Assembly (NCBI RefSeq): GCF_902806985.1
Contig: NZ_CADCXY010000001.1
Location: 186,001-250,000, forward strand
Reading direction: 5' to 3'
Source of the DNA: Pseudidiomarina piscicola
Lineage (GTDB): Bacteria > Pseudomonadota > Gammaproteobacteria > Enterobacterales > Alteromonadaceae
DNA length: 64,000 bases
In this document: positions 2,948 through 58,207 of the stretch, piece by piece
Numbering within the stretch: the first letter of the stretch is position 1
How the letters are laid out: every line of letters starts with the position of its first letter
Program-made: the position numbers and the translations under genes
Notes under the pieces: generated by a model
Seen by the model: the letters and a program-made list of their open reading frames with translations, nothing else
The model's database searches: none
What the model was told of the DNA's origin: nothing

Positions 2948-3421
2948 CTACTCGCTTACTTTTGCAATAACTTGACGTACCAGCTGCTGTGCCGCTTGTT
3001 CGCGCATCTCAGCAACGAGTACTTCGCGTTCGCGCGTTTTTGCCAGGGCAAAGTTAGGGTCGTCTTGATAGTCGCGGAAAACCTCAACTTGCAGCGCTTG
3101 GTTTTGTCCCTGTTGCTGGCGCAATAAATAATTGACGGTGTAAATCAATTCATATTCGGCAACTTGACCGCTGGCCGACAAACTAAGGGTTCGTCGGGTC
3201 AAGCTATCGCTAACAATTTCAACAGTGGTGACTGAGCTGTCATGCACGAGCTCGGCACCTGCTAGGCGAAAACGTTCACGCGCGGTCGCGGCGAATTCAC
3301 TAAACTGAGGTGCGTCGATACGTAACTGCTGCAAATCGGCCGGTAACTTATAGTTGCCTTGTAGCTGGAAACCACAAGCCACCAAAAGTAACGAAAATAA
3401 ACCTAGCAGCAGTGTACGCAT
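2948..3421 (-). CDS. lptE: LPS-assembly lipoprotein LptE
   Basis: Outer-membrane lipoprotein that plugs the LptD barrel and helps place lipopolysaccharide on the cell surface. The N-terminus is a lipoprotein signal with lipobox LLVAC (Cys16) followed by GFQLQG, typical of LptE/RlpB. The family is poorly conserved, but size (157 residues), the lipobox, and position between leuS and holA are those of E. coli lptE. The holA start lies 4 nt downstream. Confidence 0.92.
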   Translation of the reverse strand: MRTLLLGLFSLLLVACGFQLQGNYKLPADLQQLRIDAPQFSEFAATARERFRLAGAELVHDSSVTTVEIVSDSLTRRTLSLSASGQVAEYELIYTVNYLLRQQQGQNQALQVEVFRDYQDDPNFALAKTREREVLVAEMREQAAQQLVRQVIAKVSE

Positions 3422-3449
3422 GTCGTGTCCTAGTTGTTAATCAATGGTG

Positions 3450-6062
<2,613 letters not shown>

Positions 6063-55526: not shown

Positions 55527-55559
55527 TTGTAGCAACCTTGCTAGTAAAAAAGTTGTAAA

Positions 55560-55588
55560 GCCCCGCTTCGATAGCGGGGCTTTTTTTT
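55560..55588 (+). terminator. Rho-independent terminator of the TonB2-type operon
   Basis: The stem GCCCCGC/GCGGGGC (55560-55566 and 55574-55580) with a 7-nt loop is followed by eight T (55581-55588). It separates the TonB2 operon from the MNIO RiPP operon. Confidence 0.95.
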
Positions 55589-55642
55589 GCCTTTTGCGCT
55601 ATAGTTAATCGTGAAACTACAGGAAATAATGAGGTTCCAACT

Positions 55643-56059
55643 ATGAACAATATGAAAAAATCTGTTGCCGTAACGGTCGGCGCATTATTAGCCGGCGGTA
55701 TGTCTGTACAAGCAGCAAGTGCTAATCCTTTTAGCTATTCTGATCTGGGCTCTGGCTATCAACAGCAAGAGAGCAAAGAGCGCGAAGCTAAGTGCGGTGA
55801 AGGCCGCTGTGGCGAAGACGCGAAAGCCAAAATGAAAGAGAAAGCCGAGGAAGCCAAGTGTGGTGAAGGCAAGTGCGGCGAAGGCAAATGTGGTGAAGAG
55901 CACAAAGCTAAGATGACAGAAAAAGCCGAAGAAGGTAAATGCGGCGAAGGCAAGTGTGGCGAAAAACACAAAGCTAAGATGTCTGAGCAAGCTGAAAAAG
56001 CCAAAGAAGGCAAATGTGGCGAAGGTAAATGTGGTGAAGGGAAGTGCGGCGGACAGTAG
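55643..56059 (+). CDS. Bufferin/HvfA-type precursor peptide with EGKCG repeats
   Basis: 138 residues. A signal peptide with cleavage near ASA-NP is followed by NPFSYSDLGSGY (28-39), a conserved start in this peptide class, and then ten cysteines (51, 56, 73, 78, 83, 100, 105, 125, 130, 135), each in an EGKCG-type motif (seven exact, plus EAKCG twice and EGRCG). The motifs fall in four clusters separated by a Lys/Glu/Ala linker of the form HKAKMxEKAEE with one Met each. In HvfA/bufferins the Cys of EGKCG is modified by an MNIO enzyme and binds copper. The SD is GAGG at 55631. Modification and copper binding are inferred here. Confidence 0.85.
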   Translation: MNNMKKSVAVTVGALLAGGMSVQAASANPFSYSDLGSGYQQQESKEREAKCGEGRCGEDAKAKMKEKAEEAKCGEGKCGEGKCGEEHKAKMTEKAEEGKCGEGKCGEKHKAKMSEQAEKAKEGKCGEGKCGEGKCGGQ

Positions 56060-56886
56060 GTTTAGGTTTACGCCGTGAATTCCTAACTGATGTACTGGAG
56101 CTTGAACCGCAAATAGGCTTTTGGGAACTTGCTCCAGAAAATTGGTTTCCACGAGGGTCGCAGGCTCAGCGCACGCTTGATCGGGTGCGTGAGCAGGCCC
56201 CTTTAACGAGTCATGGCCTGTCGTTGTCGATTGGTAGTCCAGATCCTATCGATGTTGGCTTTGTTAAACAGGTCAAAGCGTTCCTTGATCGGTTTAATAT
56301 CGCTATCTACAGCGAGCACCTAAGCTATTGTTCAGCGGGCGGTCACTTGTATGACTTGCTACCGATGCCATTCACCGCTGAAGCGGCATCCTATGTTGCT
56401 GAGCGGGTGAAGCAGGTGCAAGACATTATTGAACGTCCGTTGGTGCTGGAAAACGTGTCTTATTATGCCAACTTTGGCGGTGAGCTTTCGGAGCTAGAGT
56501 TCATCAATCAAGTCGCAGAAGAAGCGGACTGTAAGCTTTTGCTGGATGTAAATAACGTTTTCGTTAATAGTGTTAACCATCGCTACAATGCTCATGATTT
56601 CATCCGCAGTTTACCATCCGCACGCATTAGTTATGGCCATATTGCCGGGCATAGTGAAGAGTATGATGACCTTTTTGTTGATACCCATGGCGCGGATGTG
56701 AAGCAGGAAGTATGGCAACTATTAGCGTTTGCGTATGAATGTCATGGTATTTTTCCAACAGTCCTCGAGCGCGACTTTAATATCCCACCGTTAACACAAT
56801 TGCTGCAAGAAGCTGATAAAGTTGTGTCATGCCAAACCAATTATGAGCGACGAGATGTCAAAGCCGTTTCAACAGATCCAGCTTGA
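56044..56886 (+). CDS. DUF692/MNIO multinuclear iron oxidase
   Basis: 280 residues, a TIM-barrel of the MbnB/BufB/HvfB family that oxidises peptide cysteines. Likely iron ligands are His57 ('SHGLSLSIGS'), His92 ('YSEHLSYC'), Glu136 ('VLENVSYY'), Asp168 and Asn171 ('LLLDVNNVFVN'), His199/His203 ('YGHIAGHSE'), His215 ('DTHGADV') and Glu242 ('LERDFNIP'). The start is GTG at 56044, inside the last EGKCG codons of the precursor gene, a 16-bp overlap. It overlaps the DUF2063 gene as well. Confidence 0.9.
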   Translation: MRRTVGLGLRREFLTDVLELEPQIGFWELAPENWFPRGSQAQRTLDRVREQAPLTSHGLSLSIGSPDPIDVGFVKQVKAFLDRFNIAIYSEHLSYCSAGGHLYDLLPMPFTAEAASYVAERVKQVQDIIERPLVLENVSYYANFGGELSELEFINQVAEEADCKLLLDVNNVFVNSVNHRYNAHDFIRSLPSARISYGHIAGHSEEYDDLFVDTHGADVKQEVWQLLAFAYECHGIFPTVLERDFNIPPLTQLLQEADKVVSCQTNYERRDVKAVSTDPA

Positions 56887-57604
56887 ATTTGCCCAATGGT
56901 TAAGGGAAGAAACGACACAGGAAAAGGGATTTGGTTCAATAGAGCCACGGCGTACGGCTATTTATAAGCGCTTAATTCACGCCAATATTGAGCAATTTAT
57001 CGATTCGGGCTTCCCCGTACTACGCAAGACCCTTGACGACGCTCATTGGCAACAGCTCAAGCGTGATTTTATTGCCCAACATCGCGCGCAATCACCGTTA
57101 TTTTCAGATATTGGCCGTGAGTTCCTAAACTTTTTAGTAGCTGAGCAACAGCTCTTGAGCGAGTACCCAGACTGGCTGTTTGAATTAGCTCAGTATGAAC
57201 GAATGGAAGTAGACGTGCAGTTTGCCGATCTTGAATCCAAGTATAGACCTTTAGATAGCTTCGATGCGGCCACACCTCTGTACCTTAACCCAACGGCTCA
57301 GGTGGGTATTTTTGACTACCCTGTGGCACAAATATCGAGCTCATTTAGACCCGACAAGAAGTTGGCAACACCTTATTTTGTGTTGGTTTACCAAAACCAG
57401 CACGGCAAGGTTCAGTTTATTGAACTCAACTCTTTGACAGCTCTTGCATTAGATATGTTGCAGCAGCAACCGCTCAACTTGCAGCAATTGAGTGAGGCCT
57501 TATCCGACCAGTTGCCAAATTTCACCATAGAACAACTCTATGAAGGCTTTGCGGCGATTGCGGCAGACTTTGCAGAGCGGTTCGTGTTGTTAGACAAGTC
57601 GTAA
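56843..57604 (+). CDS. DUF2063-family partner protein (BufC/HvfC-like)
   Basis: 253 residues. The N-terminal DUF2063 domain ('EFAQWLREE', 'RRTAIYKRLIHANIEQFIDSGFPVLRKTL') is followed by a C-terminal domain with 'YFVLVYQNQHGKVQFIELN'. Such proteins guide the precursor peptide to the MNIO. The ATG at 56843 (MSDEMSKPF) is chosen; 56855 is also possible. It overlaps the MNIO gene by 44 bp. A DoxX gene (BufD/HvfD) that often follows is absent. Confidence 0.87.
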   Translation: MSDEMSKPFQQIQLEFAQWLREETTQEKGFGSIEPRRTAIYKRLIHANIEQFIDSGFPVLRKTLDDAHWQQLKRDFIAQHRAQSPLFSDIGREFLNFLVAEQQLLSEYPDWLFELAQYERMEVDVQFADLESKYRPLDSFDAATPLYLNPTAQVGIFDYPVAQISSSFRPDKKLATPYFVLVYQNQHGKVQFIELNSLTALALDMLQQQPLNLQQLSEALSDQLPNFTIEQLYEGFAAIAADFAERFVLLDKS

Positions 57605-57664: not shown

Positions 57665-57790
57665 ATGGCAAATGATCAAGATTTCCGTGACCCATCAGGT
57701 GCATTGATGGGCTGGTTGGCAGTTCTGGTAGTTGTTGCAGTGCCATTATTACCTGCAACCGTAAAATGGTTCCAACTCCTCAGCGCTTAA
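57665..57790 (+). CDS. Small single-helix membrane protein, unknown
   Basis: 41 residues: MANDQDFRDPSGALMGWL, then one hydrophobic helix (about 15-34, LMGWLAVLVVVAVPLLPATV) and a short polar end (KWFQLLSA). AGG lies ten bases ahead of the ATG. It lies between the DUF2063 gene (60 bp) and the receiver gene (18 bp), same direction. I do not recognise it; a role with the peptide operon or the receiver is possible but unproven. Confidence 0.65.
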   Translation: MANDQDFRDPSGALMGWLAVLVVVAVPLLPATVKWFQLLSA

Positions 57791-57808: not shown

Positions 57809-58207
57809 ATGTCAACCAAGCTATTGTTGGTGGAAGATAACGCTTCCACGCGCGCGAGTTTGCTAGAGACACTCGCAGCGACCCCCTTTGTGGTTAGCTG
57901 TGCGAATGATGGTTTAGATGGCCTTAACCAAGCCAAGGCGACGCCATTTGATGTTGTTCTTATCGATCATAAAATGCCGTTAATGGACGGCTTGAGCCTG
58001 ATCCGCACCTTGCGAACGTTACCTGCTTATGCGCAGACACCGTTAATTCTGCTATCCACCCAAGACAGTAGTCAGTTAGACGAAATGGGGCAGCGCTCAG
58101 GGGCTGACTTAAGTTTAGCGAAACCGGTAGACGGACAACGCTTACTCGAGTTGCTAGCTGACTTATGGCAGACCATGCAAACGCCTAAGCAATCGGCCCA
58201 AATATGA
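57809..58207 (+). CDS. Single-domain CheY-like response regulator
   Basis: 132 residues, a receiver domain only: 'LLLVEDNASTRASLLETL' (acidic pair), phospho-acceptor Asp in 'VVLIDHKMPLMDGLSLI', Ser in 'LLSTQDSS' and Lys in 'LSLAKPVDG'. No output domain. It is 18 nt after the 41-residue protein and overlaps apt by 4 bp (ATGA). The partner kinase is not in the window. Housekeeping context suggests no obvious target. Confidence 0.9.
   Translation: MSTKLLLVEDNASTRASLLETLAATPFVVSCANDGLDGLNQAKATPFDVVLIDHKMPLMDGLSLIRTLRTLPAYAQTPLILLSTQDSSQLDEMGQRSGADLSLAKPVDGQRLLELLADLWQTMQTPKQSAQI

Follow-up and report, generated by a model that had tools for sequence, protein, structure and literature searches.

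The three-gene operon found at positions 55643 to 57604 (plus strand) of the analysed 64,000-nucleotide stretch of the Pseudidiomarina piscicola genome (contig NZ_CADCXY010000001.1; hereafter the window) is, judged by its sequence, an hvfABC-type captophorin operon of the oxazolin, fontiphorin and bulbicupramide kind and an ordinary member of this recently described family. It encodes a 138-residue precursor with ten cysteines in EGKCG-type motifs (hvfA-type gene, 55643..56059), a multinuclear iron oxidase (MNIO) of 280 residues that belongs to DUF692 (PF05114) and starts with GTG (hvfB-type gene, 56044..56886), and a partner with DUF2063 and NGO1945_C domains (hvfC-type gene, 56855..57604), all on the plus strand. 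The comparison with related genomes revealed, besides the expected enzyme-bearing loci, a group of bacteria that keep such a peptide with no MNIO recognised in the genome.

The family assignment was demonstrated by profile matches over their cut-offs. The precursor matched the HvfA repeat domain KCGExKCG (NF050137, NCBIfam) in five stretches with 64.3 bits (cut-off 19.5), the MNIO matched HvfB (NF003818) with 404.3 bits (cut-off 360), and the partner matched HvfC (NF050145) with 231.4 bits (cut-off 142), its two Pfam domains also scoring over the cut-off. Because no Pfam domain over the cut-off was found in the precursor, its membership rests on NCBIfam. The locus combines an MNIO, a PME1 partner and a precursor with Lys–Cys five-residue units, which is the gene set of captophorins according to the defining paper (PMC13097082). 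The family assignment put forward in the preliminary description, made from the sequence alone, was supported by all three models. The comparison that it proposed with the HvfA and BufA families gave agreement for the HvfA repeat domain but not further: the HvfA equivalog model was failed (scores are given below), DUF2282, which defines Buf1 bufferins, was not listed for the precursor in a Pfam scan with E values up to 1, and the MNIO scored below the cut-off of the BufB model (279 bits, cut-off 310). A single PF05114 match was present in the host genome (2,510,096 bases in 16 contigs), and the nearest named relative, in a scan possibly lacking the host's own genome, was Pseudidiomarina halophila, with 83% identity in the MNIO.

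Solved relatives in the PDB are 3bww for HvfB (E 6.7e-71) and 3dee for HvfC (E 3.8e-10). HvfB and 3bww share the blocks HGLSLS, HLS, EN, DVNN, HIAGH and DTHG. The distance from Arg10-Arg11 to Asp244-Phe245 of HvfB is 234 residues, the same as that from Arg15-Arg16 to Asp249-Phe250 of FonB, the fontiphorin MNIO. In FonB, Arg15 and Arg16 were reported to influence the choice of Glu at the first motif position, and Asp249, adjoining Phe250, was proposed as the base; the enzyme prefers motifs that open with Glu and have Gly next to the Cys on its C-terminal side (PMC13097082). All ten motifs of the window precursor have this Glu and this Gly, in agreement with the FonB preference.

The N-terminus of the precursor, basic and then hydrophobic, on inspection resembles a Sec signal, and a putative signal peptide was delimited at residues 1–27 (55643..55723) with the cleavage site placed from the sequence. 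It is followed by the leader motif NPFSYSDLGSGY (residues 28–39, 55724..55759) and the core repeat region (55784..56056), in which the motifs are parsed into clusters of two, three, two and three, joined by linkers of K, E, A and M. Each of the ten Cys lies in [KR]CG with a Glu three residues before it (seven EGKCG, two EAKCG and one EGRCG), whereas 10,000 shuffled versions of the mature part contained 0.4 [KR]CG on average and never more than 5. The linkers are EDAKAKMKEKAE, EEHKAKMTEKAE and EKHKAKMSEQAEKAK, the first lacking the His of the other two. The signal-like N-terminus, the clustered ten-Cys precursor and the overlap of all three genes had been described correctly; the picture of EGKCG motifs with near-identical linkers stood for the ten Cys and four clusters but was too uniform, since three motifs vary and the first linker has no His. 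The candidate role of the linkers as conserved His-Met copper sites was rejected, HxxxM being found in eight of 20 precursors of the genus and in one of 46 rows elsewhere, some of which repeat a species. The ratio of nonsynonymous to synonymous substitution rates (dN/dS) of the precursor was 0.03–0.08 in five Pseudidiomarina pairs.

The leader belongs to a wider pattern, [LM]xxG[YF], which, sought at any position in the protein, was scored in 67 distinct precursors, taken from loci anchored by an MNIO or from genomes with HvfB over the cut-off, and occurred in 64 of them. The three misses were a frame running from the first base of a contig, a frame near a contig start and a masked leader. The 67 precursors form an uneven sample, which includes the best-scoring loci of the EGKCG-domain search; eight loci in which the search gave no precursor (L029, L035, L040, L041, L049, L074, L081 and L084) and the loci of the MNIO-less and below-cut-off groups were kept outside it. 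Motif position 1 was Glu in all 708 motifs counted in these precursors, the count taking in the motifs with Lys or Arg before the Cys. We infer that NPFSYSDLGSGY would serve as a recognition element for the modification enzymes.

Some precursors of the compared loci were unusual in other respects. One (L003, 1372-2235) has 26 Cys in near-identical 18-residue repeats, another (L059, 3471-3830) carries a signal of the twin-arginine type (TIGR01409, 20.7 bits, cut-off 16.7), and in three Shewanella loci (L056, L057 and L058, near 3400-3900) an acidic segment, e.g. EGEGSIQAEAQDQAEAEAQGAPMPAPDAK, is added between the leader motif and the core. Published EGKCG precursors contain as many as 58 Cys (PMC12452194).

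Among the characterised systems, the fontiphorin operon (fonABC of Fontimonas thermophila) likewise consists of only a precursor with Lys–Cys five-residue units, an MNIO and a PME1/DUF2063 partner; its LysC peptides carry two, three and two modified sites, like the clusters of the window, and the substrate-choosing residues of its MNIO have the spacing noted above, but it has seven sites instead of ten (PMC13097082). Two of the three linkers of the window precursor contain HKAKM, a possible further difference from fontiphorin. The bulbicupramide operon (mmrABC) of Microbulbifer, also marine, combines a precursor built of EGKCG-unit cassettes with an MNIO and a DUF2063 protein, and its conserved leader, to which we liken that of the window, was placed on the partner's RRE by modelling; the main text does not contain the word DoxX (PMC12538549). 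Its precursors have five to eight Cys, the one from the strain under study being built of three cassettes with two Cys each, in contrast to ten Cys in a 2-3-2-3 arrangement in the window (PMC12538549). Oxazolin of Haemophilus influenzae (hvfABC with hvfX) shares the HvfA repeat, HvfB and HvfC families but has six sites (PMC13419390, PMC13097082), whereas the window precursor has ten and failed the HvfA equivalog, and no HvfX or DoxX was found in its genome. The signal peptide, repeated EGKCG and variable motif number are common to the Buf_EGKCG/oxazolin class, but the regular 17-residue two-motif repeat of that class (PMC12452194) is replaced in the window by irregular spacing.

The operon proved to be widespread in the genus. 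A homologue of the window MNIO was found in 22 of the 25 other Pseudidiomarina genomes (62–84% identity), which makes 23 of 26 when the host's own genome is counted, and the remaining three also lack the EGKCG domain, so that the MNIO and the domain go together in Pseudidiomarina. Twenty of the 23 MNIO-holding loci gave a precursor, always 5' of the MNIO and partner genes; three gave none under the criterion of the script, two of these because a contig ends at the MNIO. In 19 of the 20 loci the precursor has six to ten motifs in two to four clusters with linkers; parsing of the twentieth, L085, was incomplete. In the alignment of upstream regions the L085 stretch was cut inside the gene and is not a true upstream region. 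The modular repeat, taken at first as distinctive, is therefore usual in the genus and has a counterpart in the 2/3/2 arrangement of fontiphorin.

The absence of a DoxX gene was confirmed not only at the locus but in the whole host genome, where neither PF07681 (DoxX) nor NF050144 (HvfX) had a match, which sets the locus apart from HvfABC-X operons. It does not distinguish the operon either. DoxX proteins were found in 11 of the 26 genus genomes, on another contig than the MNIO in nine and at least 390 kb away in two. In a family sample of 98 genomes HvfB over the cut-off was present in 49; HvfX over the cut-off adjoined HvfB in none of the 49 (listed positions compared by eye) and lay elsewhere in the genome in 41, weaker HvfX matches being among the matches listed. 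Fontiphorin also has three genes only (PMC13097082). The other arrangement exists, as in a Sedimenticola locus (L060) with HvfX after hvfC. HvfX-family proteins over the cut-off occurred in 69 of the 98 genomes, away from hvfB where hvfB was present.

The chromosomal slot of the operon was compared as well. Upstream of it lies a tetratricopeptide repeat (TPR) gene, identified by Pfam domain scan and preceded by open reading frames (ORFs) which we take to be ExbD and TonB. Downstream of hvfC there are a 41-codon ORF, a receiver-domain gene and two further ORFs, presumably apt and dnaX. A match to the window Apt was found downstream of hvfBC in 25 of 31 named MNIO loci, among them those of Pseudidiomarina, Alteromonas, Paraglaciecola, Shewanella, Paraferrimonas and Catenovulum, which indicates that the slot is old; several of the six loci with no Apt match are shortened by contig ends.

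MNIOs with PME1 partners turn Lys–Cys units into 5-thiooxazoles with the loss of four hydrogens per site, and the name captophorins was proposed for the products (Gadgil et al., PMC13097082). 5-Thiooxazoles were reported on fontiphorin, oxazolin and gonophorin, and copper binding for fontiphorin and gonophorin (PMC13097082); bulbicupramide bound Cu(I) and, appreciably, none of four other metals tested (PMC12538549). By analogy, we consider it highly probable that HvfB and HvfC of the window make up to ten 5-thiooxazoles on the precursor and that the exported peptide binds Cu(I), which would likely buffer excess copper. HvfC would hold the precursor, probably via the leader that follows the signal peptide, and HvfB, as a multinuclear iron oxidase, would remove four hydrogens from each Lys–Cys unit, with an expected mass shift of about −40 Da for ten 5-thiooxazoles. 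The modified peptide would then be exported by Sec and bind Cu(I) in the periplasm. Direct support exists for the genes, the family membership, the presence of the published substrate-choosing residues and the conservation in the genus; the chemistry, the export and the copper binding would follow from the likeness to the characterised products. On the same grounds a copper-stress role in the host is plausible and a copper-buffering one likely, so that the copper-sequestering function proposed in the preliminary description is a reasonable supposition.

Several observations weigh against this explanation. The precursor failed the HvfA equivalog model NF050188 (41.6 bits, cut-off 95), which was also failed by the four other precursors tested (49.7 to 74.6 bits), of which one came from a genome with no MNIO and the rest from loci anchored by one. 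The structure model of the precursor, built from ten sequences of the genus, was uninformative (mean predicted local distance difference test score, pLDDT, 44.8; predicted template modelling score, pTM, 0.14) and speaks neither for nor against a beta-helix. Inspection by eye of the 20 aligned upstream regions revealed no recognisable copper-regulator site. Proteomics of Microbulbifer did not detect MmrABC, whether or not copper had been added; the system gave only slight growth protection in E. coli, and its authors hesitate over copper protection (PMC12538549). Finally, 16 related genomes keep the EGKCG protein with no MNIO, hence retention of the protein does not everywhere depend on its modification. 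Copper protection as the selected function is the least certain part of the explanation.

A modified, copper-binding peptide might instead have been selected for the delivery or storage of copper for periplasmic cuproenzymes, or for protection from oxidative stress or from other thiophilic metals. The lack of copper induction of the Microbulbifer homologue (PMC12538549), the failure to recognise a copper-type operator upstream of the window operon and the retention of the MNIO in most genomes of the genus, as for a general function, agree with such a role, but the neighbourhood of the operon contains no recognised cuproenzyme gene, and we regard this alternative as possible though distinctly the less likely one.

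The genomes with the peptide but no enzyme were analysed within the family sample, in which 76 of the 98 genomes had the EGKCG domain and 73 an HvfB-model match. HvfB over the cut-off was present in 48 of the 76 EGKCG genomes; in 12 all MNIO matches fell short of it, and 16 had none. These 16 represent ten genera, and 14 of them reach 90% completeness or more with contamination of 5% or less. Neither a PF05114 protein nor an HvfC match was found in any of the 16, and in each the EGKCG frame is open and encodes 8 to 17 Cys. Thirteen of these genomes also have HvfX-family proteins that score over the cut-off. In 11 of the 16 the EGKCG gene occupies the same slot as in the window, as judged by ExbD-TonB-TPR and/or receiver-apt-dnaX matches (L105-L107, L137, L138, L142-L144 and L146-L148), and in five it lies in another place (L104, L139, L140, L141 and L145).

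The precursors of the MNIO-less genomes differed from the enzyme-linked ones. None of the 16 has the leader pattern, and motif position 1 is Glu in 86 and Lys in 76 of 181 motifs, whereas all 181 Cys still lie in Cys-Gly. The dN/dS of these proteins was 0.06–0.20 in five same-genus pairs, compared with 0.02 to 0.08 in seven of eight MNIO-linked pairs (undefined in the eighth), values that repeat alignment may have lowered. In a midpoint-rooted FastTree tree of Apt and DnaX, which took the nine of the 16 loci that hold both genes, the nine formed one clade with support of 1.0 beside 25 hvfB-bearing tips. Since hvfB-bearing lineages stand on both sides, a single loss of hvfBC is the simplest reading, and for this reason the contrasts in the leader and in position 1 probably reflect one evolutionary event and not 16. 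In the 12 genomes whose MNIOs all score under the HvfB cut-off (L015, L024 and L149-L158) the EGKCG gene does not stand beside the MNIO, none of the 12 precursors has the leader pattern, and position 1 is Glu in 57 and Lys in 48 of 133 motifs; modification in trans is possible there.

Antoine et al. found 67 of 2583 EGKCG genomes to have no MNIO and proposed either activity without modification or loss of function (PMC12452194). In the MNIO-less clade the retained slot, the purifying selection and the release of the leader and Glu constraints speak for activity without modification. We incline, with reserve, to the view that in at least one clade the EGKCG protein has a selected function independent of an MNIO, that captophorins are a modified version of a metallothionein-like exported thiol protein, and that the leader and the position-1 Glu are what HvfB and HvfC read. 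A contrary result for a general enzyme-independent role came from Pseudidiomarina itself, in which the precursor did not outlast the enzyme: the three MNIO-less genomes of the 26 have no EGKCG domain. No published account of the contrast between enzyme-bearing and enzyme-less EGKCG proteins was recognised in a limited search of the open-access literature.

The same data could be taken further, to mean that the repeat protein is mainly an unmodified, metallothionein-like thiol protein and that modification is an optional refinement lost in the sister clade. The joint absence of HvfB matches, PF05114 and HvfC from all 16 genomes, the slot shared by 11 of them, the invariant Cys-Gly, the dN/dS values and the single well-supported clade of the nine that could be placed would be expected under such a scenario. 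However, the window organism retains hvfBC, the leader motif and the position-1 Glu, the enzyme-less Pseudidiomarina genomes lost the EGKCG protein too, and the 12 further genomes with uncoupled precursors hold other MNIOs, so that in part of that group the protein may be modified in trans or by some enzyme that was not recognised; as an account of the operon this alternative seems doubtful. We regard it as very improbable that the host carries the operon as a relic, whether silent or in decay: the homologue in Microbulbifer escaped detection in proteomes (PMC12538549) and three of the 26 genus genomes have neither MNIO nor EGKCG domain, but the three reading frames are intact, the precursor dN/dS is as low as given above and 23 genomes keep the MNIO. 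A modified copper-binding captophorin remains the reading that we prefer for the window operon.

The genes of the operon are tightly packed. The GTG start of hvfB at 56044 lies inside hvfA (16-nt overlap), and hvfC, which ends at 57604, probably starts at ATG 56855 or 56843, with TTG 56822 also open; its candidate starts precede the end of the MNIO gene at 56886, hence these genes overlap as well. An intrinsic terminator (55557..55583, plus strand) after the TPR gene sets the operon apart from it, and a similar hairpin was counted by eye in 18 of the 20 aligned upstream regions of Pseudidiomarina. A putative −10 element of the operon's own promoter, TATAGT (55600..55605, plus strand), lies within a GCTATAGTT-like block that the upstream-region alignment showed to be common to the closest species; the evidence for this promoter is weak, as no sigma-70 site was predicted at this position.

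Two neighbouring genes were considered as parts of the system and rejected. The receiver-domain protein (57809-58207) is present at six MNIO-less loci, and many loci with hvfB have no match to it in the interval from hvfC to apt. The 41-codon ORF (57665-57790) was found, by one motif, in three of the 20 genus loci and had no Pfam family over the cut-off. Its product is small and hydrophobic (MANDQDFRDPSG...), and L064 and L065, two close relatives, have retained it.

The window thus contributes one more operon to a large family, in which a modular precursor and a missing DoxX gene are normal among the relatives. The clade that keeps the peptide without the enzymes deserves more attention than the window operon itself. 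The enzyme-less relatives represent a natural deletion experiment, which separates what is apparently needed for modification, the leader motif and the Glu before the motif, from what is needed for retention, the Cys-Gly repeats. If our interpretation is true, the leader [LM]xxG[YF] and the position-1 Glu would mark the features read by HvfBC, and the enzyme-less relatives make the handling of copper by the unmodified protein directly testable.
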